Under the pieces are notes generated by a model, which searched no databases, was not told where the DNA came from, and saw only the letters and a list, made by a program, of their open reading frames with translations. Shown one piece after another: positions 1 to 15,519 of a stretch of 38,972 bases of DNA (positions are counted from its first letter, which is position 1; each line of letters opens with the position of its first letter). A program made the translations under genes and the position numbers. Origin of the DNA: Candidatus Lloydbacteria bacterium RIFCSPLOWO2_01_FULL_50_20 (GTDB lineage: Bacteria; Patescibacteriota; Minisyncoccia; Phycocordibacterales; UBA6899); NCBI GenBank assembly GCA_001821435.1, contig MHLP01000002.1:1-38972 (forward strand), read 5' to 3'.

Positions 1-40
1 AGATGGGACTGCGCTGGTTCGCCTATAACATGCTGGTGAT

Positions 41-274
41 TTAGGCGTACCTTGGTGACACGGGGTGTTTTCTACAGAGCACTCCTGTCTCCCCGCTATT
101 GGCGAGTTCACGTATCTTTTGAGTTAAATCATATGACACTGCGATCCATGTTGCGATAATGGCACTCCGATAAGACTCTGCTCTCAATGCTCGAATTGCC
201 TCTTCGATATAAGATCGAGAATTGGCATCACGCACTTCTAACGCTAGTTCATCGATGTTGTTTAAAACAGTCAT
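41..274 (-). pseudogene. N-terminal fragment of a hypothetical protein
   Basis: The first ~60 residues read like an intact protein start, with an amphipathic helical stretch containing RAESYRSAIIATWIAVSYDL followed by KIRELANSGE. That pattern is familiar from uncharacterised helical proteins that are normally a few hundred residues long. The frame then ends after about 15 unrelated-looking residues at a TAA at 41-43. Neither other frame clearly continues the protein within the ~40 bases left. I read it as a truncated or frameshifted relic; a function cannot be given. A sequencing error is also possible because the break is near the window edge. Confidence 0.45.
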
Positions 275-399
275 AAATTACGAATACCGAAGCTACTCGG
301 TCGTGAACTTTTTTGAGAGCCTTTCGGGGCTTCTCGGTCGCCTCTTGGGTCTCTGCGTCGGGGGTGCCGTAGTGGACGCACTTCGAACCTGTTTGGTGG

Positions 400-613
400 C
401 ATAAAGAATGCCCAGATGCCCCATATTAGCGATATTGACTAGAAACGTCTACTGTATGAGCTCAAGTGGTGGGCAGACTTGTGGAAAGAGCGAAGCCGCA
501 AAGAGTGACTCGCACTTAAGACCGACTTCCGAACGATTGACTGGGTAAAGGCATATCCATTTCCAGAGAGTGCTCTACAGGAAATTAAGGAGTTACTCCT
601 GCTTGTTCCCTAA
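400..613 (+). pseudogene. Decayed reading frame, unknown product
   Basis: In the frame ending at TAA 611-613 the translation has protein-like composition (for example YELKWWADLWKERSRKE, then DFRTIDWVKAYPFPESALQE) but is broken by an in-frame TAG near 458 and a TGA near 510. Because TGA serves as a normal stop elsewhere in the window, recoding is not a good explanation. The 275-400 stretch upstream has no convincing gene; it contains a small GC hairpin around 315-335. I interpret this as a remnant of a gene at the decayed left side of the element. The call rests on composition only. Confidence 0.25.
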
Positions 614-1433
614 GAACGACAACCCGCTGCTGCATTTTTGCTAATGCACCATCGACCTCAGTGCTAATTTCTACATCTACGCGATCAATGCTCTCAAGAT
701 TTCTTGCGAATTTTTTAAAGTCTGTATGTCTTCGAAAATATTTGAAGTTTGTTCCTTCATGCATCCACAACGCAAACCTACCGCGACCATAGGATCTCCG
801 CAGTTTTTCGTTATAAATCTTAACCTGAATGAGTGATTTTATCCCGCCGGGGAAAGATTCTCTATAAAAGTTTTCAATGCCTGTTGCAAAAAGCTCTAAG
901 TTGGTGGCATATGACTCTCTCTGGGCAGCAGGATTGGGTGTGGCGTTACTCCTTAAAAGATCAATCAACCTGTCATTTACTTTCAAAAGCCGGTCGTAAT
1001 CGTCTCGGAGCGCAGACAGGATACAATTAACTTCACTAACAGCTGAATGCACCCAGAGTAATTTATTGTGTATGTAATAACTGTTTATCCTAAAGTTTGG
1101 AATATCGGGGTCCATGTATATTCCTGCCATCGCGGGCATGTTGACGAAATTTATCGCAAACGCCCTTGGATCATTTATTTGCCTAACTTCTACTACAAGA
1201 GTTCGCAGGTTCCCGACAAAATAAGCAAGTTTTTCTTGCGTGTTATGAAAGCTGTTTAGGGTATAGGTGATATCCACTTCTATTCGGCGGAGGATCTCGA
1301 GTCTTCGTTCACGTGCATCAAGCTTGCTTTTTACCCAATAGCCAAGAGCGGACAGTAGCACAGCAAATGCAGAGCCACCAAATGCCCCAATAAGCTCCTG
1401 CCACCTATATAGTGTTTCGCTTGGTAACCCCAT
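585..1433 (-). CDS. Membrane-anchored hypothetical protein
   Basis: About 282 residues from the ATG at 1433; an upstream in-frame start at 1532 would add 33 residues that do not look like a natural N-terminus. Near residues 12-32 there is one hydrophobic segment (LIGAFGGSAFAVLLSALGYW) followed by a charged stretch (KSKLDARERRLEILRRIE). The remaining ~230 residues are predicted largely helical and charged, so one N-terminal membrane anchor with a cytoplasmic helical domain is likely. No catalytic motif is recognised. It is divergently arranged with the PemK-like toxin gene at 1616. A single-TM plus helical body is common in accessory and defence loci, but no function can be assigned. Confidence 0.7.
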   Translation of the reverse strand: MGLPSETLYRWQELIGAFGGSAFAVLLSALGYWVKSKLDARERRLEILRRIEVDITYTLNSFHNTQEKLAYFVGNLRTLVVEVRQINDPRAFAINFVNMPAMAGIYMDPDIPNFRINSYYIHNKLLWVHSAVSEVNCILSALRDDYDRLLKVNDRLIDLLRSNATPNPAAQRESYATNLELFATGIENFYRESFPGGIKSLIQVKIYNEKLRRSYGRGRFALWMHEGTNFKYFRRHTDFKKFARNLESIDRVDVEISTEVDGALAKMQQRVVVLREQAGVTP

Positions 1434-1615
1434 ACGGAATGATACTACGCGCACTTTAAGCGAAGTAAAGGGTGCCACAAACACCCTCGTGCACGGCCAG
1501 CTGGAGGAGGTAATTTGCTCTAGAACGAACAAGGAAACTTGTTACGAGCGTGGGTGGCACCCAAAACTAAGTCGTCATTTTGAGTTTTTCGCATTTTGGA
1601 TTAATGTAAGAAACA

Positions 1616-2038
1616 GTGTTATACCAACCTGATGAGGGAACCGTCCTATTTTGCGACTTTGATGGTTTTGTTGAACCTGAAATAATAAAAAGTCGACCGG
1701 TAGTAGTCTTAAAGAAACACAGCACCAACAGCAAGTTGGTGACCATCGTGCCCCTAAGCACTACGGCCCCAACTCATGTCATGCCTTACCACTTTGAGTT
1801 TGTGAGCAATCCGGTACCGACGGCAAGAATGGGTGACATAACTTGGGCAAAATGTGACATGGTGGTGACGATTTCCCTGGAAAGGCTTGATAGATTCAAG
1901 ATTAAATCATATGGGAAACGAGAATATGTTGAGGGGCACATTTCTCGCGAAGATCTGGCCTCAATAAGGGAGTGCGTGGCAATCGCCCTTGGTTTGACCG
2001 AGAATATTGCTGATGAAAAAAAGCCTGTGGATAGCTAA
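1616..2038 (+). CDS. PemK/MazF-family toxin-like endoribonuclease
   Basis: A 140-residue protein with the beginning typical of this fold: GTVLFCDFDGF, then KSRPVVVLKK, TIVPLSTTAP and a C-terminal helix rich in RECVAIALG. The family cleaves RNA, usually mRNA, and is normally neutralised by a small protein antitoxin encoded just upstream. This member belongs to the longer 'CDFDGF...PVIV' branch often found in phages and mobile elements. The chosen start is GTG at 1616; there is no strong ribosome-binding site and no in-frame ATG nearby. Only about 180 bases separate it from the divergent gene at 1433, and no antitoxin-like frame is seen there. A structured RNA with a terminator follows directly downstream. 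Whether the protein is active cannot be judged from sequence alone. Confidence 0.85.
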   Translation: MLYQPDEGTVLFCDFDGFVEPEIIKSRPVVVLKKHSTNSKLVTIVPLSTTAPTHVMPYHFEFVSNPVPTARMGDITWAKCDMVVTISLERLDRFKIKSYGKREYVEGHISREDLASIRECVAIALGLTENIADEKKPVDS

Positions 2039-2085
2039 TTTGGGTTCTACTTTATGGGTTTTTGGAGAATTGTGTCCTGCGACAC

Positions 2086-2346
2086 TCATTGACTCTTCAT
2101 GTGTATATCGTAGACTGAAATTGATCCCGAAAGGGGCTTGCAAGACTTCGGTGTTACAGCCGGAGCAGGTCTTGGCAGGAGCGAAGACAAGCTCGCCAGG
2201 GCCTTAGAGTGAAGTGAGAAGAACACCAGAAGTGGTGTCTTTTCTTTTACCCCCTCCCATACCTCAAATTGAGCGGGTCCCATACGGGTTACTTCATCAA
2301 GGCCTTTTGATTCCTTTGTATCGTCCAGATATAAATATTCAACCAA
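2086..2346 (-). CDS. Doubtful small protein at the end of the helicase operon
   Basis: An 86-codon frame starting at TTG 2346, overlapping the end of the gene at 2339. The first ~36 residues look protein-like (for example KESKGLDEVTRMGPAQFEVW). The rest (about 2086-2235) is antisense to the structured RNA and has low-complexity composition (LASLSSLLPRPAPAV). It could be a translationally coupled last gene, a gene whose 3' part was replaced, or chance. No domain recognised. Confidence 0.25.
   Translation of the reverse strand: MVEYLYLDDTKESKGLDEVTRMGPAQFEVWEGVKEKTPLLVFFSLHSKALASLSSLLPRPAPAVTPKSCKPLSGSISVYDIHMKSQ
2089..2116 (+). promoter_or_regulatory. Putative sigma70-type promoter of the structured RNA
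   Basis: TTGACT (2089-2094), a 16-base spacer and TAGACT (2111-2116). The -35 matches five of six consensus bases and the -10 four of six. It would start a transcript near 2123, just before the first hairpin. It lies after the toxin stop codon. Confidence 0.4.
2118..2249 (+). ncRNA. Structured small RNA downstream of the PemK-like toxin
   Basis: This stretch has no convincing protein on the plus strand but dense pairing potential. Elements seen: CCC-GAAA-GGG tetraloop hairpin (2126-2135); CAAGAC (2141-2146) with GTCTTG (2169-2174), enclosing TTCGGT/GCCGGA (2147-2152 with 2159-2164, loop GTTACA); GGC+GAGC (2174-2182) with GCTC+GCC (2191-2197); GGTCTT (2168-2173) with AGGGCC (2198-2203); and GGGCTTG (2134-2140) with CAAGCTC (2188-2194). 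It ends in an intrinsic terminator. Some of these stems exclude each other, so two folds are possible. It is not tRNA, tmRNA, SRP RNA or RNase P RNA by motif. A putative promoter at 2089-2116 fits a stand-alone transcript of ~125 nt, or it may be the 3' part of the toxin transcript. Confidence 0.5.
2223..2249 (+). terminator. Intrinsic terminator after the toxin/RNA unit
   Basis: ACACCA (2223-2228), loop GAAG, TGGTGT (2233-2238), then CTTTTCTTTTA. A T-rich tail on the plus strand only points to rightward transcription ending here. Confidence 0.65.
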
Positions 2347-2854
2347 CAGTGCTCTCTCCAGAGAGCCCCCGTTTTTTAAGCATCTCTTTTTTCATGACCT
2401 CTATCGGGTCTTCAAAATTAATGAAAGCTTTTACGGTTCCATCTGCCTGTGTATTTGGCCTGAGTCCTCCTTTGCCGTCGTCTACAAATTCAACTGTCAG
2501 GTTGTTGCGGGCCATTATATCGTCGGGCACCTCGTGGTTGATGTGGTGATTTTCAATTTCCTTCTTTGCTGGCTGATGTGCAACTTCACCGTCAACCTTT
2601 CTTGTTTCGTCGACATCATAAATCGGATCCGTCTTTCCAGAAGGTCGGTAAATACGCATATTTAGTCCTCCATCAGCATCCTCAAATACTGCACTTATTC
2701 CTACGCTCCTCATGCTTGAGGGCAGGCTTTTCGTGTTTTTGAAGTCTGCAATATAAAAAGCCTTCTTTATACCCCCCTGCGGGAAGGCTTTTGATAACGC
2801 CTCTTTTGCGGTCTTGAATGCCCTGTGGTTAAGTTTATTTTTTCGAGGCTTCAT
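2339..2854 (-). CDS. Hypothetical protein, fifth gene of the helicase operon
   Basis: 171 residues beginning MKPRKNKLNHRAFK; the N-terminal 25 residues are strongly basic, which would suit nucleic-acid contact. The middle contains IKKAFYIADFKNTK and a beta-rich stretch (ISAVFEDADGGLNMRIYRP); the C-terminal third is acidic and mixed (VEFVDDGKGGLRPN). No family recognised and no membrane segment. The ATG lies 2 bases after the stop of the nuclease gene, so it is almost certainly co-transcribed and probably coupled to it. It may be a partner or inhibitor of the nuclease, but that is inferred from gene order only. Confidence 0.75.
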   Translation of the reverse strand: MKPRKNKLNHRAFKTAKEALSKAFPQGGIKKAFYIADFKNTKSLPSSMRSVGISAVFEDADGGLNMRIYRPSGKTDPIYDVDETRKVDGEVAHQPAKKEIENHHINHEVPDDIMARNNLTVEFVDDGKGGLRPNTQADGTVKAFINFEDPIEVMKKEMLKKRGLSGESTVG

Positions 2855-2856
2855 TT

Positions 2857-3330
2857 TTAATTTCCCCCCTCAAAGTCGCGCAGAATCTGAAGATATTGCT
2901 CCTGTAGCTCTTTCGGAATATGTGGGTGCTCAAGGGACGATATCTTCCCCTCGTTCTCGCAGATCGTTTTAACATCATCAAAATAGAACCCTTCATTCGT
3001 GGCAATGAAAAGAAACGATGGATTCCACGATTCACTCATGCGGTGGGCATAACGATATACATAGCCCTGATTTAAAACATGCTGATATTTAACCTCGATC
3101 AGCCGAACTTCCTTTGTGACCTTGTTGATTACCGCAAAGTCCGGTGAAGTCCGGAGGGTTTCAAGTGTCCCCTTATCCTCAGAAAATCCTTCTGAAACGA
3201 GCTCGGGAACAATCTTCTCATAGCCAAATTCGAGGACCGTAAAATGCCCAGTCTCACGAAGCATCTGCGCAAAGAGAGTTTCTGCAATTTTCCCCTTAAC
3301 AAGATTTCGTGCAAAAGAAACGTTACTCAT
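2857..3330 (-). CDS. PD-(D/E)XK-type nuclease
   Basis: 157 residues with the order expected of a restriction-endonuclease-like fold: an N-terminal helix with a conserved glutamate (GKIAETLFAQML, about residues 13-24), a strand ending in SPDFAVIN (about 62-69) and the catalytic strand RLIEVKYQ (about 76-83). D, E and K are all present, so it may be an active metal-dependent DNase. The C-terminal half carries aromatic residues and charged helices. It sits 5 bases downstream of the membrane protein gene and 2 bases upstream of the hypothetical gene. Such small nucleases occur in defence operons and in recombination loci. Alternative: a structural, inactive REase-fold subunit. Confidence 0.7.
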   Translation of the reverse strand: MSNVSFARNLVKGKIAETLFAQMLRETGHFTVLEFGYEKIVPELVSEGFSEDKGTLETLRTSPDFAVINKVTKEVRLIEVKYQHVLNQGYVYRYAHRMSESWNPSFLFIATNEGFYFDDVKTICENEGKISSLEHPHIPKELQEQYLQILRDFEGGN

Positions 3331-3335
3331 ACGAT

Positions 3336-4040
3336 TTATGCTGGGATGTCATAACTTTTTTTTAATTCCTCCAACTCCTCTGGGTCCACCAGCTCTTTTC
3401 TTCTACGTTCTTGTTCCAGCTGTTTAATTTCATGCAACAGCGTAGTCACATCGCTTTCCCAAACGCCCTCAATATATGAACCTATGGAAAACGGCCTGTA
3501 TTTGGTTGAGTATTGACCGTAGTCGACCGAGCAGCTTACTTCAAATACCTTCTTTTCGTCACTGAGAAGCGTGAGGGTTAAGTAGGTTTCGTTTTCTGGG
3601 CCACTCGTTTGTTTTTGCTTAATCCTGTATGTGTTATCACCAATTACTAATTCGTACTCATCTTTTTCTTTATCTATGTATCTCGCATTCTTTACAATTT
3701 TGGGCACATAATTTCTGTCTTTTTTTATCCAGCTTGGAAAGTGCTGTGTTTCTTCGTAAACTTCCACCATAAGGTCATCGAGTTTTCTGCTTTCGGCAAG
3801 CTCCCTTCTTTCTTTGGCAAACTCTCTTATTTTCATTGCCTTTTCTAGTTCAGGGTCTCTTTGGGTAAGTATATCAATAAGGTTGTCGTTATTAACTGGA
3901 GCAGTGACACTTTGCTCAGGCTGCTGTTCAGTTTTTTTTCTTTGAATAAGCAAGGCGACAACAATAAAGGCTCCTAAGGCCACCCAAAAGCTCTGAAAGA
4001 TAAGCCCCAATAATATCGCTGAAAATATTGCCCAAATCAT
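3336..4040 (-). CDS. Membrane-anchored protein of the helicase operon
   Basis: 234 residues. Residues ~2-33 are hydrophobic with a short break (MIWAIFSAILLGLIFQSFW, then VALGAFIVVALLI), giving one long or two short membrane segments, followed by RKK. The rest is soluble: a charged helical part (residues ~45-95), then a beta-rich domain (YELVIGDNTYRI, TYLTLTLLSDEKKVFEV) and a C-terminal charged helix. No enzyme motif seen. The ATG is 12 bases after the helicase stop and the next ATG is 5 bases after this stop, so it belongs to the same transcript. Such a protein could tether the helicase-nuclease to the membrane or act as an effector; this is inference from context. Confidence 0.75.
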   Translation of the reverse strand: MIWAIFSAILLGLIFQSFWVALGAFIVVALLIQRKKTEQQPEQSVTAPVNNDNLIDILTQRDPELEKAMKIREFAKERRELAESRKLDDLMVEVYEETQHFPSWIKKDRNYVPKIVKNARYIDKEKDEYELVIGDNTYRIKQKQTSGPENETYLTLTLLSDEKKVFEVSCSVDYGQYSTKYRPFSIGSYIEGVWESDVTTLLHEIKQLEQERRRKELVDPEELEELKKSYDIPA

Positions 4041-4052
4041 ATATGACTTTCT

Positions 4053-7000
4053 TCAAATAACTAATGAATTAAGAGCTTGCGCTACTTTTGCAATCTGGGC
4101 ATCCGAATCACGTTCCCAGTCTCGATGTGAGATGCGAACAAATCTCCAGCCAGCCCTTTCAAGAATCCCCTGTCGCCACACATCATAGAAGTTTTGCCTG
4201 TCTTTCATGTCGAAGTGAGTAGGTCCGTCACACTCTACTGCTACCCAGTTCTTACCATCTCCTGCAACAAGATCAATGGAGAACCCTGCTGCCTCATATT
4301 GTGGCCACACTTTCATGCCACTGCGTTCAAGCGCTTGTGCAACCTGCTCTTCAAATTTGGAATCGAAGATGCCTTGTGGTATTTCACTCACAGTACTACG
4401 AGCTGAGTGGAGGAGAAATTCTTTCAAAAGACCATTTGGGAGATCGTCCGGTGTGACCGATGACACGGCTATAAGCTTCTTCTTTGCGCGAGTAATTGAA
4501 ACATTAAATACATTTGGCTTTTCCAAGAAGTTAAGTGTTCCATGATGAAACTTCGGGTCGAGGGAGAGTGAGAGAATCACCACGTCTTTCTCATCTCCCT
4601 GGAGGCTGTGAGCAGTGCCCACTACAATCTTGTGGCGTTCTAATTCTGTAAGCGAAAGATAATTTGGAAGAGCCTTCGTTATTGCATTAACTTGGTCCCT
4701 AAAAGGAGAGAGGATGCCTATGGTGGTGGGCTTGTCGCTCGGTGATTGAGCGATCAATTGTTTTACGTGCTTGAAAATCGCCTCAATCTCTATGGGGTTG
4801 GCTGCACCCTCTGTTCGCTTACCTTTAACATAGTCGAGCTGTATCGCTGTTTCTTGCTCGGCAAGTCCCATTTTCGGTTTATGAGTCATGATGCGAATCT
4901 GATCTTCATAGAACATCTTGTTTGAGAAACCAATGATGTGTGGGTCGGAGCGGAAGTGCTCGTCAAGCATGAAGTAGTTCGCTTGAGGTACAAGGTTCTC
5001 TGCCACATCGAAGAGGCTATTTGTGGAGAATCTGTAGTTAGCTTGTATGTCTGGTGGAACATTGTTTTTTGCAAACGACGAATATTCCGCCTGTTTACCA
5101 AGAAAGACAACATGATTGAGCTGCTTTGGATCACCCACGATAAGTGCCCTGTTGGCGCGGTAGAGTGCGGGAATCGCCGAAGCAAGATCACACTGACTCG
5201 CCTCATCAAATATCACGAGGTCGAACATGCCTGGTTGGACCGGTAGGATTTGCGAGAGATGATATGTCGTACTTGCCCAACACGGGAACGATGCGAGAAG
5301 AGTATCTGTTTTTACCTGATCAAGAAGAGCGAGTTTCTCTCTAATATTTGCGGTGCGAAGAGACTTAACAAACTTCTTCAACTCAACACGCTTTTCATAA
5401 TTATGGACTATAAGGTGAAGGTTGCCGAGTAGTCGTGCCTTAAGATTATTAAGTGCAAGCTTTCTCAATTGAATTTTGAGAGATTGAATCTCCGTCCATA
5501 TTTGATCTACTGCGTCGAACTTGGCTATCTCTGCTTCAACCTCCTCACGTTCACGCTCATTTACTATGCGTTCAGCCATAAGTACGAGGTCCTGTGCTGT
5601 GGTGTTTTCAGGTGCACCCAACTGCAAGCGGATGCTCTTGATTGTTCGATCGCCCCACCACGTCTGAACAAAAAAGCCCTTATTACGTATTAATGCATCT
5701 GCTCCTTTAATTTTTTCTTTTAAGCGTGCGGCCTTTGCCTTTTTGAGCGAAAGACCGCCCGAGTCGAATTCAACATTAAGTCGAGAGTTTATTTCCTCAA
5801 TCTTGTCGTGTACCGAAGTCCAACTGCGCTCGTTGGTGATCGCTTCTGTAAACTCTTCTTCAAGTTCAGTGAGTTTGTTTTGTGCTATCTCGTGTTCTTT
5901 GATGGCCGCTTCAATATGATTTTTTTGGTAGGGATTTTCGTTTGCCGTGCTTTTGGGACCGGTAATCACATCGAGCTTATCTGCCAATGCTCTTTGCGCC
6001 TTTCGTGCCCCTGAACGCGCAACGGAGTAAGGACCGACGAACTCTTCTAGCCACGCAGACACAACATCAACGGCCTTATCCATTCTCGATACAAAAAGTA
6101 CTCGCTTGCCTCCAAGTAGGTGGTCGAGAATAATTGCAGCGATAGTGTATGACTTCCCAGTGCCAGGTGGCCCCGAAACGACGGTGAGGTTATTCTTTCT
6201 TGCATTCACTACAATCTTCTTTTGTGTGTCGCTCAGATCAAACGGAAAAAGGTTGTGCCAATTCCCGTCCTCTGGCTGTGTCGATTCTGAAAATCCGCTC
6301 GAGGTTTGATCTTCTACTGCTGATACCGGATTGCCTGCGGCGAGAGCATTTTCAAGCAGAAGAAAATCAAGTGCCGTTTTGTCTTTTGCGTTTATAAGAA
6401 TGTTGCTAAGCTCTTCCACTACCGTACCTTCTCCCTCTTGTTTGGGGGCAAGTATAAGGCAGTGTGCCGGACAAAGCTTATAGCCCTCTTTTTCACCCTC
6501 AATTGCATCAAACTCAACGAAGGACGAGGGATTTCCGTTCTCTTTAAATATCTCGGGAAAGTAATTGCTTAGGCTCTCGAAAAACTTCTGAACGCTATCA
6601 AACGTCAGTGGCCACTCGGGAATAGCCGAATACAAATCTTGAAAGCGTACTTCGAGTTCCTCGTCATTTTCTGCGCTCACCACCCCGGCAATAAGTGACT
6701 GGTTAAGGTGAACAGTGTCATCTTCCTTTAGGGTGAAGATCACACTGTCGGCCTCTGTTTTTTCAGCATCAACTTTTAGGTAGAGCAGGGGTGCATTGAT
6801 CTTGCTCGTGCGATTGCCATTACCTCTAAAACCTTTAACAAAAAGTGTGCCGATAATGATTTCAAACTCTGATGCCTGTGCTCTCACCTTATAGAGCATG
6901 TCGAGAGCTTCTTTGCTCTTCAGTTCAAATTTACCGTTCGCTAATTGCTCAAGAGCATTCGGCTTTAGGGGGATAAACGAGACATCACCAGTTGTAACGT

Positions 7001-7298
7001 CGGTTAGTGCGACTGAACGCATGATTGCCTGTGCGCAATCCTTCAAATAGCCGACGAGCGAAATAACCCGCTCTGATGCATTAGTGCGCTCCTGTTCTTC
7101 TGCAGTGAATTGTGCTACCAAATTCTCATCACTCAGCTTGCCCACGTTTACTTGCGTAGTATTCTCATCAAAACCACCTTTTTTCTCACAGTCTCCACAA
7201 ATCTGCCCGTACTTTACTTTTTTTTCTTTGCACACAATACAATGTGGCTTATTTGCCCAATATCTCTTCGCGTCAAATTGTCTTTGGTAACTGGCCAT
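4053..7298 (-). CDS. SF1 (DNA2/UPF1-like) helicase with zinc finger and C-terminal Vsr/DUF559-like nuclease
   Basis: About 1,081 residues from the ATG at 7298, which lies one base after the stop of the HTH gene; a TTG at 7358 in the same frame would overlap that gene by 59 bases. Order of parts: CIVC...CGDC zinc finger (about residues 20-37); a ~300-residue unassigned region; the helicase core with GPPGTGKS Walker A (about 376-383), VIFDEASQCD motif II, GDPKQL motif III, and NVSITRAKKK motif VI preceded by GTAHSLQGDE; a long coiled, insertion-like segment between motifs I and II; then a C-terminal nuclease domain (last ~90 residues) with FSIDLVAG and VAVECDGPTH, as in DUF559/Vsr-type endonucleases. 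Helicase-nuclease fusions of this sort are common in anti-phage loci and DNA repair. ATP-dependent DNA or RNA unwinding is expected; the target is unknown. Confidence 0.9.
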   Translation of the reverse strand: MASYQRQFDAKRYWANKPHCIVCKEKKVKYGQICGDCEKKGGFDENTTQVNVGKLSDENLVAQFTAEEQERTNASERVISLVGYLKDCAQAIMRSVALTDVTTGDVSFIPLKPNALEQLANGKFELKSKEALDMLYKVRAQASEFEIIIGTLFVKGFRGNGNRTSKINAPLLYLKVDAEKTEADSVIFTLKEDDTVHLNQSLIAGVVSAENDEELEVRFQDLYSAIPEWPLTFDSVQKFFESLSNYFPEIFKENGNPSSFVEFDAIEGEKEGYKLCPAHCLILAPKQEGEGTVVEELSNILINAKDKTALDFLLLENALAAGNPVSAVEDQTSSGFSESTQPEDGNWHNLFPFDLSDTQKKIVVNARKNNLTVVSGPPGTGKSYTIAAIILDHLLGGKRVLFVSRMDKAVDVVSAWLEEFVGPYSVARSGARKAQRALADKLDVITGPKSTANENPYQKNHIEAAIKEHEIAQNKLTELEEEFTEAITNERSWTSVHDKIEEINSRLNVEFDSGGLSLKKAKAARLKEKIKGADALIRNKGFFVQTWWGDRTIKSIRLQLGAPENTTAQDLVLMAERIVNEREREEVEAEIAKFDAVDQIWTEIQSLKIQLRKLALNNLKARLLGNLHLIVHNYEKRVELKKFVKSLRTANIREKLALLDQVKTDTLLASFPCWASTTYHLSQILPVQPGMFDLVIFDEASQCDLASAIPALYRANRALIVGDPKQLNHVVFLGKQAEYSSFAKNNVPPDIQANYRFSTNSLFDVAENLVPQANYFMLDEHFRSDPHIIGFSNKMFYEDQIRIMTHKPKMGLAEQETAIQLDYVKGKRTEGAANPIEIEAIFKHVKQLIAQSPSDKPTTIGILSPFRDQVNAITKALPNYLSLTELERHKIVVGTAHSLQGDEKDVVILSLSLDPKFHHGTLNFLEKPNVFNVSITRAKKKLIAVSSVTPDDLPNGLLKEFLLHSARSTVSEIPQGIFDSKFEEQVAQALERSGMKVWPQYEAAGFSIDLVAGDGKNWVAVECDGPTHFDMKDRQNFYDVWRQGILERAGWRFVRISHRDWERDSDAQIAKVAQALNSLVI

Positions 7299-7299
7299 A

Positions 7300-7479
7300 T
7301 CATTTAATAAGCTTGAGTACGTCGCTTTTTTTGAAACGGCGGTCTCCGCGATTCCCAAAACGTATCGCCCTTATGATTCCCTTATTATCCCAATTCCTTA
7401 GTGTATTGGGATGGCAGTTTAAAATCTCGCAAGCTTCTTGGAGAGTAAGAATATCCGGCTGTTTTTGTGAGTTTTTCAC
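7300..7479 (-). CDS. Small MerR/HTH_17-type DNA-binding regulator
   Basis: A 59-residue protein found by direct reading, GTG start at 7479 and TGA at 7300-7302, one base before the helicase ATG. The sequence has the excisionase-like winged HTH pattern: LTLQEACEILNCHPNTLRNW, then KGIIRAIRFGN and RRFKKSDVLKLI. This fold binds short palindromic or repeated sites. A perfect 21-base palindrome sits 6 bases upstream of its start, so autoregulation of the operon is the simplest reading. The lack of a clear ribosome-binding site fits a leaderless or very short leader. It could alternatively act as a recombination directionality factor, but the real xis candidate is beside the recombinase. Confidence 0.8.
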   Translation of the reverse strand: MKNSQKQPDILTLQEACEILNCHPNTLRNWDNKGIIRAIRFGNRGDRRFKKSDVLKLIK

Positions 7480-7485
7480 GATAAA

Positions 7486-7506
7486 GTTAACTTAACATAA
7501 GTTAAC
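7486..7506. promoter_or_regulatory. Perfect palindrome, likely operator of the helicase operon
   Basis: GTTAACTTA (7486-7494), spacer ACA, TAAGTTAAC (7498-7506): 9-base arms with no mismatch. It lies immediately upstream of the HTH gene start (7479), in the promoter region on the minus strand (possible TTGAAT -35 just beyond it). A binding site for the adjacent HTH protein is likely. Confidence 0.65.
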
Positions 7507-7535
7507 AACTTATTCAAGACCCTTTCACTCTTTGA

Positions 7536-8084
7536 TTACAGTCCGATGATACACCCCTCTCCCTGTTTGTCCGTTAGCTCCTCGATGCTGTCGGATTGCT
7601 CCTTCGTAGTCGGTTGCACCCTCTGCTCGGGTTGTTTGTTGTGCTGAGCCCAGCTCTGCTCCTCCTCTTTTTTCGTTTCCTCAAATATGCCGGAGAAAAT
7701 GCTCACGAGTTTGTGTGTTCGTTTGTTTTCAGCAATCAGTTCCTGGATTCTCTCATAAACTAATCCACGTTTGTGAAGCATATCCTTTCCTGCTATCACG
7801 GAGCCAGTGGTGCCGACTTTGTAAAATGAGACAACAAATCCTTCCGCGTGAGTCAGTCCCTCATTCCAGTTTGACCACATGCGAGCGAACTTTTCTGCTG
7901 TTTGATGATTCGACGGCCAAGTTTTCTCTGTGTTCTCGATCCTTAAATACATGATGTTCTCTTCATATCGCTCGAGCTCAGATGCAATTCCCGCCCACAT
8001 CCTGTGCCATTTGTCATACCCTCGTATCGCTCTCGATGAAATTCTCCGAACTTCGTTCCTGGAGAGTGTCCCTGCGCTGTTCAT
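7536..8084 (-). CDS. Hypothetical protein
   Basis: 182 residues from the ATG at 8084; a GTG at 8126 would add 14 residues but lies against a hairpin and has no ribosome-binding site. The protein is hydrophilic, rich in W, E and R (RAIRGYDKWHRMWAGIASEL; RMWSNWNEGLTHAEGF), with a glutamine/glutamate-rich tail. No membrane segment or known domain. It is on the same strand as the helicase operon but separated from it by the palindrome at 7486-7506, so it is probably a separate unit reading towards that operon. Function unknown. Confidence 0.6.
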   Translation of the reverse strand: MNSAGTLSRNEVRRISSRAIRGYDKWHRMWAGIASELERYEENIMYLRIENTEKTWPSNHQTAEKFARMWSNWNEGLTHAEGFVVSFYKVGTTGSVIAGKDMLHKRGLVYERIQELIAENKRTHKLVSIFSGIFEETKKEEEQSWAQHNKQPEQRVQPTTKEQSDSIEELTDKQGEGCIIGL

Positions 8085-8326
8085 ATGTTTGTGTTTATTG
8101 GCTAAATAAAAACTCCGTCCGTACACAGGAAAGAGTTTCGACGTTATCTTTCCCCTGTCGGGGCTGGAGGCACCTTCTCACTGCTGAGGGTTGCCGGTGG
8201 GTCGTTGAGCCAGTCTCTCGCCACACTCTGGATAAAGCACTGTTTAATTGTCTGCGTGAGATATAACTATCGTCGCCGAGAAAGGTTTCGAAATCATTTC
8301 ACCCTGATTTTTGTGAATTAATCGTG
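8085..8326. other. Non-coding or decayed stretch with inverted repeats
   Basis: No convincing full gene. Hairpins: GGAAAGA (8128-8134) with TCTTTCC (8147-8153), and CCCC-TGTC-GGGG (8152-8163). On the minus strand a start-less frame ending near 8142 reads in part VARDWLNDPPATLSSEKVPP, which looks protein-like and may be a relic. A 17-codon ATG frame begins near 8300 on the minus strand. Nothing here can be assigned. Confidence 0.35.
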
Positions 8327-8443
8327 TCACCTTTTCCTTTGCGCAAGCAACTTCCCCTGCTCTTTGTCGAGCTGTTTCCGCTCTCTGAGCGCGTCGTTGA
8401 TCAACTTCCTCAGTCGCAGGTTGGGCTTTTTCTTTGTTTTCAT
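8327..8443 (-). CDS. Very small basic protein
   Basis: 38 residues from the ATG at 8443, two bases after the stop of the Cys-rich gene; a longer frame to 8509 would overlap that gene by 64 bases. Sequence is almost entirely K, R, L, E and Q (RLRKLINDALRERKQL), predicted to be one charged helix. Position directly downstream in a three-gene cluster suggests co-expression. It could bind nucleic acid; no family recognised, and a chance frame cannot be excluded. Confidence 0.4.
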   Translation of the reverse strand: MKTKKKPNLRLRKLINDALRERKQLDKEQGKLLAQRKR

Positions 8444-8445
8444 AA

Positions 8446-8640
8446 TTATTTTCTGTTTTTGTATCTTTCGCAAAACTCTACTTTGCTCTTCTCTGGGTGT
8501 GTCGAGCAATTCTTATTTTGGCAATTTACCAGCAAACATTTTGCGCACTGGGGTTCGGCGCAAATGCATTTCCGAGCTTCATTTTTTGTATCTTCCTGTT
8601 GATTTTCGTCTGTGTTTGGAATCATATTTTTTGCGCTCAC
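8446..8640 (-). CDS. Small cysteine-rich protein
   Basis: 64 residues, GTG start at 8640 overlapping the TGA of the upstream zinc-ribbon gene, so translational coupling is likely. The C-terminal 40 residues hold eight cysteines (CICAEPQCAKCLLVNCQNKN..., then CERYKNRK), spaced in a way that suggests binding of zinc or another metal cluster, or disulfides. No signal peptide. No family recognised. Confidence 0.55.
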   Translation of the reverse strand: MSAKNMIPNTDENQQEDTKNEARKCICAEPQCAKCLLVNCQNKNCSTHPEKSKVEFCERYKNRK

Positions 8641-8852
8641 GGCAAGTAATCCTTTAGCTTGTACAAAAGCATCGAAAGAGCACCTTTACCTATGGGGGCA
8701 CGCCCTGGGGCACATAAAATTGAGAATCCTGCATTCACTAGAGGTTGATTACATTTCGGACAAATGCCCGGAGCTTCCTCGCGACTCTCGATATTTATTT
8801 TGCAGGATGCGCAGTGATGATCGTAGATTTTACCCAGTCCTGATGTTTTCAT
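8637..8852 (-). CDS. Small zinc-ribbon protein
   Basis: 71 residues from the ATG at 8852. CASC (residues ~14-17) and CPKC (~31-34) form a classic two-knuckle zinc ribbon, followed by a short hydrophobic-basic C-terminus (GKGALSMLLYKLKDYL). First gene of a cluster with the Cys-rich and basic proteins downstream. Zinc ribbons of this size usually bind nucleic acid or a protein partner. No closer assignment possible. Confidence 0.6.
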   Translation of the reverse strand: MKTSGLGKIYDHHCASCKINIESREEAPGICPKCNQPLVNAGFSILCAPGRAPIGKGALSMLLYKLKDYLP

Positions 8853-8975
8853 GTGCAAATTGTATGTTTAATCACTCCTATGTGCCGGCCTTCTTCTGTT
8901 CCACAAGAAGTTTCAAAAATATTGCTTTATTTTCAATATTCATATCAAAATAATTTATTCCTTATTCTGATCACC

Positions 8976-9461
8976 TTATTTTTTATTAAACATTTTATCA
9001 ATCCTATTATTCGTTTGTTTTTCCAATTCTCCTGGTTTCCCACCCAACACTTCATCAATAATACCCATACTGGCTGTTTTCATATAATGTGAGTTATCCT
9101 TTCTGTAAAAATCTAACCATTTTAAATAATTGTCCGAGTAACGTGAAAATAACCAAACCATTTTCCACAAAGATATCAAAAGCGCTAAGCAGGCTCCAAT
9201 AAATAGGCTTATGGAAAAACCAAACGAATACTTAATAAAAAAATAGTAGGCAAGCACCAAAATTATAGACGCAGTTATACTACACGCTAATGCGGTTATA
9301 ATATATTTTTTTAATACGGGTTTCTGTTTGATAATATTTTTTCGTCCAAGTTTTATTGTTGCTGGGATATCAAATAGTAACGAAACAAAAGTATTAGCGA
9401 ACAGGTAAAAAAATACAACGAAAGAAATTGCTATGACAAATGTTGCTATTATTATTGTCAT
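8976..9461 (-). CDS. Membrane protein, unknown function
   Basis: 161 residues with three hydrophobic stretches: about 1-30 (IIIATFVIAISFVVFFYLFA), 53-74 (IITALACSITASIILVLAYY) and 80-100 (GFSISLFIGACLALLISLW), then a soluble, charged C-terminal tail of ~55 residues. No transporter motif. The DNA here is very AT-rich. It lies 19 bases downstream of the 9481-9852 gene and is probably in one operon with it and the protease. Confidence 0.65.
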   Translation of the reverse strand: MTIIIATFVIAISFVVFFYLFANTFVSLLFDIPATIKLGRKNIIKQKPVLKKYIITALACSITASIILVLAYYFFIKYSFGFSISLFIGACLALLISLWKMVWLFSRYSDNYLKWLDFYRKDNSHYMKTASMGIIDEVLGGKPGELEKQTNNRIDKMFNKK

Positions 9462-9480
9462 GTGATTTTTTTATCTAAAT

Positions 9481-9852
9481 TTATCTACGCCCCTTTTTGT
9501 ATGCAGTATATTCCGAGCTTAAGGAAATCGCTTGTATTTCAAATAAGTGATAAACACAACTATCTACCAACGCACGATCGTAAGATTCGTCATTGCTAGT
9601 TTTTATTTTTTCTACACAGTCGTCGATGTATTGCCTGTGCAATGCTAAATTTAATTTGGCACAATCATTACGATCTTTAAAACCCATTTCTTGCAGAAAC
9701 TTCTCCTCATACCCTCCGCAAGAAACGATATCAGCCACTCTTTCGTTTTGATCAATTCGCCAAATATCCCTTCCTAAATATAAACCTAGAAAAAACATAA
9801 GGAAGGCAAACACGAGGAGAAAATTTTCTGTACTCTTTGAAAATGGTTTCAT
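9481..9852 (-). CDS. Single-pass membrane-anchored protein
   Basis: 123 residues; hydrophobic segment at about 9-26 (FLLVFAFLMFFLGLYLG) after a short positive N-terminus, so an N-terminal anchor with the rest probably outside the cell. Five cysteines in the exported part (CGGYEEKF, DRNDCAKLN, DDCVEKI, DSCVYH) could form disulfides. No known domain. It lies between the trypsin-like protease and the three-TM protein and may be their partner or substrate; this is inferred from position. Confidence 0.6.
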   Translation of the reverse strand: MKPFSKSTENFLLVFAFLMFFLGLYLGRDIWRIDQNERVADIVSCGGYEEKFLQEMGFKDRNDCAKLNLALHRQYIDDCVEKIKTSNDESYDRALVDSCVYHLFEIQAISLSSEYTAYKKGRR

Positions 9853-9927
9853 GCTTTAATGTAAATTCTCCTCCGGTTGGAAGCTCTGGTAATCATGCCA
9901 GAAGCAATAAACGTAATGCCACATTAT

Positions 9928-10920
9928 TTAATTAGGAAATACTGCATTTACATTTAAAATTCTTGCTAAAGACTCTAGACTCCCAGTCACGACAAAAGTT
10001 GGGATTCCCAAGTAACAGTTATTTTTGAGTGAAATTGCTACGCCACCCGAATTACCATGTTCAATTTTTGCTGAAGTTATGTAGTAATTTCCGTCATAGC
10101 CCGATATTATTCCGTCAGTTGCAGTTACATCATTTTGGTCACCAATTCCGGGATAACCAAGTATCAATACCTTTTCGCCTAATTCAGATTTACTTTTACA
10201 ATTATCACCCGATGTATTTTTTATAGTTTTGGTCATAAAAGGAGTCGGATCTTTTACAGTAATTAAAGCCCAATCTTCTTTATCTGAAACACCAAATGGG
10301 CTATCCTCTTTATAAACTGTTGCAAATTGAGTATCGCCCGGGATTTTAATATCACAAGAAGTTGGCCGAGCAGTAATGCCGAGTGGTTCTCCATAAAGAT
10401 TGTGAATAGGAACGTCCATTACGTGATTATTTGTTAGTATTATAATATCGCCATTTTGGGAGTCGTAACCCAATAAATATCCCGAACCAGATTGCTCTCC
10501 CATATTATTTCCCTCAAAAATAATTTTGCAATCAATAAAAGCAACTCTGGGTCTCCATTGTTTTATAATAGAGGTAGTATCACCAGAAGAAGGAGTATTT
10601 GATGGGTTGTCATAATCATGTGGTGCTATGGTTCCTTTTACGATTTCTGGCTTTCGGGTTTTAAGTGCCACAACTTCTCCTTTTAGTTTGGCAATTTCCG
10701 AATCCTGCTTTTTTCTTTCTTCCTCCGCCTCCACCTCTTTTTCATGCTGAATTTTTGATAGCTCTTGTGCCTTCAATCTCGCAGACACTTTTTCTTGCTG
10801 AAATTTTTGGTACTGATTTACGCCGAAGTATCCTCCGCCACCAACAGCTAAAACGCCCGCAATGATTGCGATGATAATTGGTATTTGGATAAATCCTTTT
10901 TTGAATTGATTTCTGATCAT
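9928..10920 (-). CDS. Membrane-anchored trypsin-like serine protease
   Basis: 330 residues from the ATG at 10920. Residues ~10-33 form a membrane anchor (GFIQIPIIIAIIAGVLAVGG), then a charged coiled coil (~38-90), then a chymotrypsin-fold protease domain. Catalytic residues are visible: His166 in TNNHVMDV, Asp216 in KEDWALI and Ser291 in HGNSGG. There is no PDZ domain, so it is smaller than DegP/HtrA. It would act outside the membrane, in envelope quality control or in processing a partner protein. The N-terminal style is common among exported CPR proteins. A folded leader lies between 10930 and 11026, 10 bases upstream of the start, and may control expression. Confidence 0.85.
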   Translation of the reverse strand: MIRNQFKKGFIQIPIIIAIIAGVLAVGGGGYFGVNQYQKFQQEKVSARLKAQELSKIQHEKEVEAEEERKKQDSEIAKLKGEVVALKTRKPEIVKGTIAPHDYDNPSNTPSSGDTTSIIKQWRPRVAFIDCKIIFEGNNMGEQSGSGYLLGYDSQNGDIIILTNNHVMDVPIHNLYGEPLGITARPTSCDIKIPGDTQFATVYKEDSPFGVSDKEDWALITVKDPTPFMTKTIKNTSGDNCKSKSELGEKVLILGYPGIGDQNDVTATDGIISGYDGNYYITSAKIEHGNSGGVAISLKNNCYLGIPTFVVTGSLESLARILNVNAVFPN

Positions 10921-10929
10921 GAAACACAA

Positions 10930-11026
10930 AACCCCGCGCTAGCTAGGCCTTGCGGCCACATACCGGTTTCCCGATATGACCCTTGGAAGAGTCGCTGAAC
11001 GCGGGGTTCAGTGTCTTCCAAGGGTC
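10930..11026 (-). promoter_or_regulatory. Strongly folded leader upstream of the protease gene
   Basis: On the plus strand: GACCCTTGGAAGA (10978-10990) pairs with TCTTCCAAGGGTC (11014-11026), 13 perfect pairs, containing a second stem CTGAAC (10995-11000)/GTTCAG (11006-11011). AACCCCGCG (10930-10938) is the perfect complement of CGCGGGGTT (11000-11008), which occupies the loop and part of the inner stem. GGCC-TTGC-GGCC and a CGG/CCG hairpin lie between them. Read as minus-strand RNA, the hairpin loop can pair with sequence just before the protease ATG, forming a pseudoknot or alternative fold. It could equally be a DNA structure such as an origin hairpin, or a plus-strand terminator, since TTTT follows at 11027. 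Confidence 0.55.
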
Positions 11027-11259
11027 TTTTAAGCCATGCTCAGCGGAGTTCCCGTAGAGTTTAGGCCCTCATTATTCAGTTGTAACTTCAATTCTATGCT
11101 TAACCACGGAAAATACCAAGGCACACCTAATATCAGAAAATATAAGAATTGGGGCAAAAACCTCGGAAAATCTCGAAATTCTGAGTTACGATGAGGACTC
11201 GGGGTGCCCCGGGCCATTGATTTGACCACTTTTGGGTGTAGGCTTGGAGTACTGAACAA
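11027..11259. other. Intergenic region without a recognised gene
   Basis: Separates the divergent protease and winged-helix genes. It contains two copies of CGGAAAAT (near 11106 and 11163) and a GC-rich block (GGGGTGCCCCGGGCC near 11200). A weak promoter (TTGATT ... TAGGCT) may serve the gene at 11260. It could also hold the element's replication origin because the replication genes lie just downstream; no clear iterons seen. Confidence 0.3.
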
Positions 11260-11949
11260 ATGAAAATGAAAATGAACATGAGCGAATTAGGTCAATTTCA
11301 AAAAGATACCCTCGAAACGCTTGATATTCTTTATAAGAATTTTTTAATTCAGGAGAAGAATACGATCGAGGTGTTTCTGGGCGACTTTCGTACTGACGGA
11401 ATTTATCCGGAAACCTTTTTTGATACAGTGCGTACTCTTAAAAAACAGGGCGTCGAGATTATGGAGTACGATCGAGAGGATACGCTTGGAGAGGAGTACT
11501 TAGTGGGAGCAAGAAACACACCCTGTTGCGAGGTGCGGTTGCCAGAGGATTTTGAGGAGGTTTATAAAAAACTTACTGCTCAATTTAGAGATCAACCAGA
11601 ACAAAATAAAAAAGACGGGCAACCAATAAAAACGGAGAAAACGAGCATTGTTATTGATGAAGAGTGTGGGATATATCGCAAAGATGATCGCAAAAAAATA
11701 TACCCCATCAGTGGAGCAAGGAAAAACTATGTTATTTCCATTTACAAAAACAAAGGAACCATGGATGAGCTGCGGGCAATCAAAAACCAGTCGGAAAGCA
11801 TTATATCGGCAGGAATAGCAAAGATTAACAAAACTGTCAGAGACAAGCTAAGCGTGGACGTAGACTTAATCGTGCATCAAAAAACAGCTGGTAAGTATAT
11901 GATCAATAAGCAAGGTTTTTCTTTCACCGCCCCAAACCACATCGAATAA
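11260..11949 (+). CDS. Hypothetical protein with a probable C-terminal winged helix
   Basis: 229 residues; four in-frame ATGs in the first eight codons make the exact start uncertain. The N-terminal 100 residues are mixed alpha/beta (IEVFLGDFRTDGIY; TVRTLKKQGVEI). The last ~90 residues (DEECGIYRKDDRKKIYPI to KYMINKQGFSF) have the helix-helix-wing rhythm of OmpR-like winged-helix domains, which occur widely in CPR element proteins. It is first in the plus-strand block that leads to the replication genes and has its own terminator at 11982-12006. A role as element regulator is plausible, but the domain call is by pattern only. Confidence 0.7.
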   Translation: MKMKMNMSELGQFQKDTLETLDILYKNFLIQEKNTIEVFLGDFRTDGIYPETFFDTVRTLKKQGVEIMEYDREDTLGEEYLVGARNTPCCEVRLPEDFEEVYKKLTAQFRDQPEQNKKDGQPIKTEKTSIVIDEECGIYRKDDRKKIYPISGARKNYVISIYKNKGTMDELRAIKNQSESIISAGIAKINKTVRDKLSVDVDLIVHQKTAGKYMINKQGFSFTAPNHIE

Positions 11950-11981
11950 ACTTCTACTTGCTGTTAATAAGCAACGCGATT

Positions 11982-12006
11982 AACGCCTTAATATGGGCGT
12001 TTTTTG
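11982..12006 (+). terminator. Intrinsic terminator after the winged-helix gene
   Basis: AACGCC (11982-11987), loop, GGCGTT (11996-12001), followed by a run of T to 12005. Confidence 0.75.
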
Positions 12007-12067
12007 TTCACAAAAGGTCAAGTAAACAACAGGTGAAGATGTGTTTCTATTGCGGGAAGATACCGTC

Positions 12068-12319
12068 ATGGAAATGAACACCGTGAATGAAAATGATTTA
12101 TTCGAGTCGACAGATTTATCGTTGGTGTCCGCCCTGTTGTGTTTTGGGGCAGTTATTGAACACGTGGACCGGAGTGCTCCACGCGCAAATTTTTCTATTC
12201 ATCGTGAAAAGGGACTAAATGAGCTTGTGCGTGCATTTTTTGCACACGAGTTAAAGGTCGATCCCCTTGTGTATTTCAACTGCATCCGGGAGGCAAAGAC
12301 ACGCCTTTATCAAGACTGA
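12068..12319 (+). CDS. DUF5659-like small protein
   Basis: About 83 residues from the ATG at 12068 (an in-frame upstream start at 12041 is less likely; GGGAAG lies just before 12068). The core reads TDLSLVSALLCFGAVIEHV...NFSIHREKGLNELVRAFF...VDPLVYFNCIREAKTRLY, a pattern I associate with DUF5659, a small family found in phages, plasmids and CPR elements. It is usually encoded next to replication genes, as here, 5 bases before the next small gene. Function unknown; probably involved in replication or its control. Confidence 0.7.
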   Translation: MEMNTVNENDLFESTDLSLVSALLCFGAVIEHVDRSAPRANFSIHREKGLNELVRAFFAHELKVDPLVYFNCIREAKTRLYQD

Positions 12320-12324
12320 CTCAC

Positions 12325-12483
12325 ATGCAGATCCCCCCGACAAAACTGGACGAATTCATCATGCTCTACGCAAAGCACTATGGAATTGTGTTGGAGGAAG
12401 CTGCTGCCCTTGAGAAGGCGACGAAACTTCTAAATTTTATAAGAATAATTGTGGGGACCCACAGAGAGAGCGATGGAAAGTAA
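12325..12483 (+). CDS. Conserved-looking 52-residue protein before the primase
   Basis: Found by direct reading: ATG at 12325, TAA at 12481-12483, overlapping the primase start at 12473 by 11 bases. The sequence pattern (KLDEFIMLYAKHYGIVLEE, then ALEKATKLLNFIRIIV) is a typical amphipathic two-helix small protein: 'EFI.LY...YGI.L....A.EKA.KLL.L'. I have the impression that such proteins recur in CPR and phage genomes, but this needs a search. The overlap suggests translational coupling to the primase. Confidence 0.65.
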   Translation: MQIPPTKLDEFIMLYAKHYGIVLEEAAALEKATKLLNFIRIIVGTHRESDGK

Positions 12484-14659: not shown

Positions 14660-14682
14660 TTCCTCATGACTTTGTTTTCTCT

Positions 14683-14805
14683 ATGATTACCCTGATTAAG
14701 ATTGTGGCCAAGCTACTCGGATACCATAACTATGACCAAAAATGTAATACCAAAAGAAGGGCAATCTTTAATGATTTCGGCATAAAATCTTGTAGTCACT
14801 TATGA
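14683..14805 (+). CDS. Tiny 40-residue protein coupled to the zinc-ribbon gene
   Basis: Found by direct reading: ATG at 14683, TGA at 14803-14805, in an ATGA overlap with the start of the next gene at 14802. Sequence begins MITLIKIVAKLLGYHNYDQK and ends with basic and cysteine residues (KCNTKRRAIFND, KSCSHL). The tight overlap is the main evidence; it may serve as a translational coupler. No family recognised. Confidence 0.45.
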   Translation: MITLIKIVAKLLGYHNYDQKCNTKRRAIFNDFGIKSCSHL

Positions 14806-15494
14806 AAGAACTTGGATATTCGGGCAAAGTAGAGGCAGATCAGCTTTTCAAGGTGACGATATACAAATTAAGAGAATGGGGTTACCTGAGATTGGATTGC
14901 CGTAAAAACGACGTATTGGGGTGGAGGGATAATTTCACCAAGAAAGAATACAATATCGATTGTATGGTTTCTACGCACAGGAACAACGAGTTTGTGCGTT
15001 TTGATTACACCATAATACGCCCCAGCGGCAACACGGAGGTCTCTCAAAGGTTTTTGCTCACCACAACTTCTTGTCACTTTGGGGGAGGGCGATACTGGTT
15101 TGTGTGTTCATCAATACAAAATAGCGAAAAATGCGGTAGGCGTGTGGGGGTACTTTATCTATCACATATAAGCCTAGAATTTTCCTGTCGCCATTGTCTT
15201 AACCTTACCTATTCAAGTAGAAAATTGAGTGGACGCTTCAAGGCGGCAGGAAACATCATTAGTTCACCGGACGTCAGTCGGATGAAGGAGGCGGTGAGGC
15301 GAAAATACTATAATGGAAAACCTACAAGAAAATATGTGCGGTATCTTAAAATTGCAACGAAGGCTAGATATGCCTATGCTATGCATCTGGGCATCGCAAC
15401 CGACATGGCAGAAGAAAGAAACTCTAGAGTAGTAAAAATGTTAGACGGCGAACCCCCTGAAGAGGGTGGTGGAAATTTAAAGATTGCAATGTAA
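14802..15494 (+). CDS. Zinc-ribbon protein of mobile elements
   Basis: 230 residues. The N-terminal half is beta-rich (KVTIYKLREWGYLRLDC; VRFDYTIIRPSGN). The centre has a hallmark zinc-binding pattern, CGRRVGVLYL then FSCRHCLNLTYSS (about residues 111-142), known from a widespread family of uncharacterised plasmid and phage proteins. The C-terminal part is helical and basic. It lies between the primase and the excisionase. Nucleic-acid binding is likely; the exact job in the element is unknown. Confidence 0.75.
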   Translation: MKELGYSGKVEADQLFKVTIYKLREWGYLRLDCRKNDVLGWRDNFTKKEYNIDCMVSTHRNNEFVRFDYTIIRPSGNTEVSQRFLLTTTSCHFGGGRYWFVCSSIQNSEKCGRRVGVLYLSHISLEFSCRHCLNLTYSSRKLSGRFKAAGNIISSPDVSRMKEAVRRKYYNGKPTRKYVRYLKIATKARYAYAMHLGIATDMAEERNSRVVKMLDGEPPEEGGGNLKIAM

Positions 15495-15519
15495 AGCAGA
15501 GTAAAGTATACTAAATCAT

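Follow-up and report, generated by a model that had tools for sequence, protein, structure and literature searches.

Mokosh systems are recognised by a PLD nuclease domain accompanying a superfamily 1 (SF1) helicase, and the PADLOC model PDC-S37, for which no paper was found in the open-licence literature searched, bears a code which we take to be that of a single-gene phage defence candidate. UPF1-like helicases fused to Vsr-like nucleases are represented by CnuH of CoCoNuT type III-B, for which passages of PMC11090510 describe an N-terminal winged helix-turn-helix (wHTH) and a large helical insertion following Walker A; according to the same passages, helicases of this large family typically lie in operons with a downstream elongated wHTH fused to effectors, generally nucleases. 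The MTES_1575-type giant HEPN-helicase-Vsr proteins, in which a Vsr-fold DNase is fused to an SF1 helicase (passages of PMC3710099), gave the restriction endonuclease (REase) family its name, and passages of PMC10270631 present Shield (ShdA) and RmuC as membrane-anchored PD-(D/E)XK nuclease. Hhe combines an SF1 core with an REase domain, its anti-phage status resting on the NCBIfam naming because the passages of PMC9519451 at hand do not mention it. Here we compare with these systems a five-gene operon of Candidatus Lloydbacteria bacterium RIFCSPLOWO2_01_FULL_50_20, whose central gene encodes a UPF1-like SF1 helicase with a C-terminal nuclease domain. The window, i.e. the whole stretch of 38,972 bases that was analysed, is the entire contig C2 of this genome (992,589 bases, 44 contigs, 96.9% complete). 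On balance, we read the helicase gene as a self-contained, sporadically transferred helicase-nuclease with a predicted role in defence, stacked with unrelated cargo.

The helicase-nuclease and its class

The operon and the main features of the helicase are the following:

7486-7506, no strand assigned: inverted repeat with perfect arms (9-3-9), GTTAACTTA-ACA-TAAGTTAAC, a candidate operator for the helix-turn-helix (HTH) regulator
7300-7479, minus strand: HTH_17/MerR-like/excisionase-like regulator, 59 residues (PF12728, 2.1e-12; TIGR01764, 2.8e-9; mad1, 4e-9)
4053-7298, minus strand: UPF1-like SF1 helicase with an N-terminal zinc ribbon and a C-terminal MTES_1575 (Vsr-like) nuclease, 1081 residues, ATG start
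7188-7241, minus strand: zinc ribbon of the helicase, residues 20-37 (C20, C23, C34, C37; CxxC...CxxC), invariant in the three proteins aligned (window and two relatives)
6150-6173, minus strand: Walker A GPPGTGKS, residues 376-383; GPPGTGK[S/T] in all 16 aligned proteins, window included
4071-4355, minus strand: MTES_1575 REase domain, residues 982-1076 (PF18741, 2.8e-23), with the ID...ECDG.TH motif intact
3336-4040, minus strand: transmembrane (TM)-type protein with one N-terminal hydrophobic helix, 234 residues, no family match
2857-3330, minus strand: predicted PD-(D/E)XK family nuclease, 157 residues, motif E17, PD64, E79-V-K81
2339-2854, minus strand: orphan protein, 171 residues, no family match

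The list of open reading frames (ORFs) had placed the helicase start at a TTG at 7358 (a 1101-residue reading), which would overlap the HTH gene; the ATG was preferred because the alignment with the orthologue at locus L036 agrees with it. The protein falls in the class of UPF1-like SF1 helicases with an MTES_1575/Vsr nuclease, having the AAA_11 (2.2e-19) and AAA_12 (1.5e-28) core, intact motifs and the C-terminal PF18741 domain. Aligned with 15 relatives, it has retained both Walker motifs, the motifs that follow them and the ID...ECDG motif of the REase; 314 residues separate Walker A from Walker B. A tree built from 19 helicases groups the window protein with that of L036 as an isolated pair (support 100/100), distant from all others; by this placement, the two make up a divergent branch of two sequences within the known class. 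The N-terminal zinc-ribbon region recurs (3.7e-14) on a 1604-residue protein of locus L077 (6935-11749, minus strand), and since the latter is a helicase of a different clade, the sequence comparison suggests that this module has been shuffled between helicases.

Comparison with the described systems places the helicase near several defence proteins and, for those with a stated cut-off or diagnostic domain or partner, outside their definitions. PDC-S37 was the best match among the PADLOC models (2.2e-67 for the window and 2.9e-71 for L036, matching the helicase core and the nuclease), but the best stretch spans positions 843-1340, about one third, of a 1550-position profile for which no curated cut-off is shown, and the window protein of 1081 residues has another N-terminus. 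The anti-phage protein ProA (NF058533), the best NCBIfam match, was reached at 3.5e-67 over residues 624-1098 of the 1101-residue reading, yet with 227 bits against a cut-off of 1500, the match beginning at position 1217 of a 1903-position profile. Likewise, the resemblance to Hhe in SF1 core and REase domain (NCBIfam, 2.8e-55; PADLOC, 5.3e-42) amounts to 187.5 bits against an NCBIfam cut-off of 2000 (profile length 1797), and no Pfam match to DUF4011, the N-terminal domain of Hhe, was obtained up to E 0.1 in the window proteins. The Mokosh proteins share the SF1 core (MkoC, 8.9e-58; MkoA is among the nearest PADLOC models), whereas the nuclease here is of the MTES_1575 family and neither a PLD domain nor an MkoB match was found in the five proteins. 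CnuH of CoCoNuT type III-B is alike in the fusion of a UPF1-like helicase with a Vsr-like nuclease and, as far as the passages of PMC11090510 go, in the large insertion after Walker A, but the window helicase bears a zinc ribbon in place of the N-terminal wHTH described there. CoCoNuTs of type III-B come with McrB/McrC-type partners. No McrB or McrC domain was detected in the five proteins, the search for McrB being confined to them and not made over the whole genome; McrC-type PF10117 was not found in the window's own genome (0/1; the control was positive in 1 of 14), a search which a divergent McrC could escape. The MTES_1575-type giants differ in that HEPN, transglutaminase and wHTH domains had no match in the window proteins. 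As to Shield and RmuC, an RmuC gene follows the helicase of L036, whereas the 3336-4040 protein has no RmuC match.

No description of this gene set was encountered in the open-licence literature searched. The original prediction had described the locus as an operon of an HTH regulator, an SF1 helicase with zinc finger and Vsr-like nuclease, a membrane-anchored protein, a PD-(D/E)XK nuclease and a hypothetical protein, carried by a mobile element next to a toxin and corresponding to no system that it could name. This gene content was borne out: the HTH_17 match, the AAA_11, AAA_12 and MTES_1575 domains with the CxxC...CxxC ribbon, the nearly invariant E...D...ExK motif in the nuclease family, the serine recombinase of the element and the adjacent PemK/MazF-like toxin all agree with it, as do the nearest PADLOC and NCBIfam models (PDC-S37, ProA, Mokosh and Hhe), which put the helicase-nuclease in a class containing defence proteins. 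None of the named systems is present in full at this locus, but the helicase itself belongs to a known class.

The surroundings of other helicase relatives speak for the defence reading. That of L035 sits inside a BREX-1 island, that of L062 (4785-9204, plus strand) lies directly 3' of a C5 DNA methylase gene (PF00145, 1.4e-76), and relatives found on plasmids are annotated there as Hhe. Scans of viral contigs with the helicase, and with the zinc-ribbon alignment as query, returned zero relatives, and tblastn against phages with the helicase gave nine partial matches with coverage of at most 42%. Relatives of known structure are SEN1, SMUBP-2, UPF1 and DNA2, proteins of RNA or DNA metabolism. 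An AlphaFold model of the helicase with L036 (predicted local distance difference test, pLDDT, 33.6) was too poor for a fold search.

An orthologue among other neighbours

A scan of the GTDB genome collection with six exact peptide patterns, which may miss close relatives, retrieved a single close relative of the helicase, 83% identical over the full 1081 residues, in the metagenome-assembled genome BP6.bin83 (L036). At the DNA level the similarity between both loci is confined to the helicase gene (74% over 3241 bp) and ends at its borders, which, as judged from the two sequences compared, is what mobility at the level of the single gene would leave behind. The codons differ at 157, 71 and 632 of 1078 first, second and third positions, respectively; as third-position differences far exceed second-position ones and dN, the non-synonymous divergence, is 0.109 (its synonymous counterpart dS was not computable), the substitution pattern argues that both copies are under purifying selection. 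All neighbours in L036 differ from those of the window: a PIF1-like helicase gene lies upstream, and 5 bases downstream begins a run encoding a 314-residue protein without assigned function, RmuC (3.9e-75) and DUF2779 (1.1e-36). No plus-strand ORF of at least 30 residues occurs at 8600-9100 of L036, just before the helicase, and thus no HTH gene there, and none of the 3336, 2857 and 2339 proteins turned up in this genome (0/1 at E <= 1; its completeness is not stated). Distribution of the helicase is sporadic, given that among 111 genomes of the order of L036 only its own (G379) had a match at E <= 1e-30 and that no match above 36% identity was seen outside G000 among 239 and 383 genomes.

The five genes do lie at 2339-7479 on the minus strand with intergenic gaps of 1, 12, 5 and 2 bases, as had been claimed, and by this spacing they are probably co-transcribed at present. 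The palindrome stands 6 bases ahead of the HTH start codon, and a 9-3-9 repeat appeared in 6 of 3000 simulated 60-base stretches; over the whole window, however, three such repeats compare with a null mean of 1.4 (largest 7), an unremarkable number, so that this repeat is notable by its place alone. Promoter and terminator scans did no better than shuffles.

The conserved co-occurrence that the original prediction proposed to look for, of the helicase with the 3336 and 2857 proteins, was not encountered. Within the stretches fetched, several of which end at contig borders, the 3336, 2857 and 2339 proteins were found at none of the 22 loci of helicase relatives (L036 included), this helicase branch at none of the 31 loci of nuclease relatives, and the helicase was absent from the single locus of a 3336 relative (0/1). 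G678 holds distant relatives of both nuclease and helicase, on separate contigs. The idea of one five-gene defence system thus lost its footing, a homologue of the helicase occurring without these neighbours being what the prediction itself had named as speaking against it: since the 83% orthologue is without the partners and the nuclease relatives are without the helicase branch, the five genes are, in our judgement, probably not a system inherited as a unit. Tight packing of defence-like genes in an operon is a poor argument for a system: a single 83% orthologue in another context undid the five-gene reading. What the locus adds is a divergent UPF1-like helicase-nuclease branch with an apparently shuffled zinc ribbon, together with an uncharacterised PD-(D/E)XK family.

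Alternative functions of the operon

The core of the explanation that we favour would be one self-sufficient protein, most likely directed against foreign nucleic acid: its poorly characterised N-terminal region, together with the zinc ribbon, may bind or select the substrate, the UPF1-like motor, whose motifs are intact, would translocate along it with ATP, and the C-terminal Vsr-like PD-(D/E)XK domain, with its catalytic motif intact, would cut it, be it DNA or RNA. The gene would move between genomes as a single-gene cassette, the HTH protein would probably repress the operon through the palindrome at 7486-7506, and the three genes behind the helicase would be unrelated cargo on a serine-recombinase integrative element, the 3336 and PD-(D/E)XK proteins being presumably co-expressed with the helicase and possibly having an effector role. 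The role in defence is proposed because of class membership and mobility. Several points weigh against this explanation, namely that repair and RNA decay, too, employ UPF1-like helicases, that the activity is a predicted one and the NCBIfam equivalog scores (227 of 1500 bits for ProA, 187.5 of 2000 for Hhe) lie far below the cut-offs, that comparison relies on one orthologue from a genome of unstated completeness retrieved by a scan able to miss relatives, that several fetched stretches are interrupted by contig ends, and that the spacing of 1-12 bases points to co-expression and perhaps to selection for it.

The main alternative, a system of modules with the helicase as sensor and motor and a downstream nuclease cassette as effector (the TM-type and PD-(D/E)XK proteins in the window, RmuC and DUF2779 in L036), has a small but appreciable chance of being the better description. 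Nuclease-type genes stand in the downstream run at 5 of 23 helicase loci, window included. Besides the window and L036, these are L030, with a DUF2779 gene (6071-7659, minus strand), interrupted and readable only in two frames, 5 bases behind the helicase relative; L028, with a PDDEXK_1 match (2e-13) overlapping the helicase gene; and L034, whose third gene matches RmuC (3.6e-26) over profile positions 2-92 of 291 only. Downstream nuclease partners thus recur, and none is fixed. The effector genes that passages of PMC11090510 place downstream, generally nucleases, and the 314 residues between Walker A and Walker B, set beside the insertion of CnuH, agree with a modular arrangement, as does L022, where genes for a different SF1-PLD helicase and an ATPase precede that of a nuclease relative. 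Nevertheless, no such gene was recognised at the other 18 loci, of which eight have no same-strand ORF of at least 100 residues within 200 bases, five have other genes (L077, L063, L066, L078 and L026, where a Fic gene takes the place of a nuclease) and five (L073, L092, L032, L093 and L031) were left out of the scan, four of the 23 stretches (L029, L069, L066 and L027) ending within 2 kb. Moreover, 31 members of the small nuclease family occur elsewhere without this helicase, and the window helicase already carries a fused nuclease. That the zinc-ribbon helicase-Vsr protein is a chassis which swaps its whole downstream effector cassette (TM-type plus PD-(D/E)XK proteins here; the 314-residue protein, RmuC and DUF2779 in L036), its zinc ribbon being shared with the L077 lineage, seems unlikely to us; if true, one sensor would work with interchangeable nuclease effectors. 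A fixed pair of helicase and DUF2779 was also considered and rejected: DUF2779 is present in 25 of 383 genomes of the class, and 3 of the 17 with a helicase relative share both, never nearer than about 8 kb and thus none adjacent, a fact that likewise counts against the modular arrangement; the two are adjacent in L030, and DUF2779 comes two genes on in L036.

We consider it quite unlikely that the helicase works for its own element or in DNA repair, through replication, excision or end processing. The element carrying the gene does encode a Prim-Pol and a recombinase, and SEN1, SMUBP-2, UPF1 and DNA2 act in RNA/DNA metabolism; it looks like cargo rather than backbone, however, because the relatives of the element (G403, G610 and G605) are without such a helicase in the stretches fetched and the L036 orthologue stands among other genes, and the C-terminal nuclease, like the nearest models, is of defence type. 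A genuine five-gene defence system, rare and undersampled, would account for the tight spacing, the one palindrome in front, the two nuclease domains and the TM-type protein, but we hold it highly improbable in view of L036, without the partners and without an HTH gene just ahead, of the partners occurring without the helicase and of the orphan without any relative. The self-contained helicase-nuclease remains our preferred reading.

Partner genes and the integrative element

From its sequence, the nuclease at 2857-3330 can be assigned to a PD-(D/E)XK family that is so far uncharacterised and of which 32 or more members occur in small-genome bacteria. Members are 24-65% identical to the window protein and spread across many genera; relatives were found in 26 of 383 genomes of the class besides the window's own and in 5 of 379 of the phylum, these samples partly overlapping. 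In the 32-member alignment, from which the fragments G583 and G506 were left out, E17, PD64 and E79-V-K81 are invariant or nearly so, with departures from PD and EVK in L082 and L080, the most distant of the members. Matches to PD-(D/E)XK families of Pfam are weak (TnsA-N in 14 of 32, other families too), and the profile found no match below E 0.37 among PDB sequences. Viral-contig scans with the nuclease and with its alignment gave zero relatives, and tblastn against plasmids and phages none.

Neighbourhoods were listed at part of the loci, 24 of 32 for the nuclease and 11 of 22 for the helicase relatives. Around the nucleases no neighbour is common to all, and only short runs are shared (L020/L059, and, near L081, L083 and L085, a small gene belonging to one cluster). 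PADLOC models at 1e-8 were compared between 115 near and 85 far proteins at the loci of 31 relatives, some of which left no room for a far set, the tallies being of families, not proteins; because both sets hold several defence-type matches, the defence-type neighbours in the single loci L022, L068 and L070 were set aside and not used as evidence. L022 (4957-10867, plus strand) carries in succession a Mokosh-like SF1 helicase that has a PLD domain, an AriAB/OLD-like ATPase and the nuclease relative.

The 3336-4040 protein had been called membrane-anchored. Its AlphaFold2 model predicts a hydrophobic helix at residues 2-38, followed by helices and a beta-rich part, and the helix is probably transmembrane, so that the claim stands as to the helix while the membrane location is probable. 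The mean pLDDT of 52.9 was too poor for a fold search, the sole blocks above 80 being the first 30 residues of that helix. One relative was found (L024, 25% identity), near a contig end, with 12 kb fetched and no helicase in it; a viral-contig scan and plasmid tblastn gave none. The orphan had no relative in 379 and 383 genomes (overlapping samples).

Around the operon, the following features define the element:

1616-2038, plus strand: PemK/MazF-like toxin, convergent with the operon and given as context only (PF02452, 1.1e-12; phrog_15698, 2.6e-32)
12449-14659, plus strand: Prim-Pol/D5 replication protein (PF09250, 7.8e-30; PF08706, 1.1e-17)
15698-17302, plus strand: large serine recombinase (PF00239, PF07508, PF13408)
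17275-17348, minus strand: tRNA-His, into whose 3' end the recombinase gene reaches; probably the attachment site

These observations support an integrative element, whose right end is the overlap of the recombinase gene 3' end with tRNA-His; G+C content is 0.35-0.46 in 1.5-kb steps over 1-16500, compared with 0.511 over 18000-38972. The left end is not visible, as the contig breaks off and the genome yielded no second attachment copy: a 20-base piece with at most two mismatches recovered the tRNA-His copy itself and no other in this incomplete genome, and no repeat of the tRNA end was seen in 1-19000. Related backbones are those of G403 (recombinase 33% identical over 558 residues, overlapping a tRNA-Ser), G610 (Prim-Pol, 51% over 447) and G605 (Prim-Pol, 40% over 265), which carry other genes in the stretches fetched. 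Just upstream of the toxin, the sole plus-strand ORF of at least 30 residues has 47 residues and overlaps the toxin start, and no clear antitoxin gene was seen. The element also bears a gene for a trypsin-like protease (9928-10929, minus strand), which has a 36% identical relative at L111 (12204-13274), on a contig with a related Prim-Pol gene.

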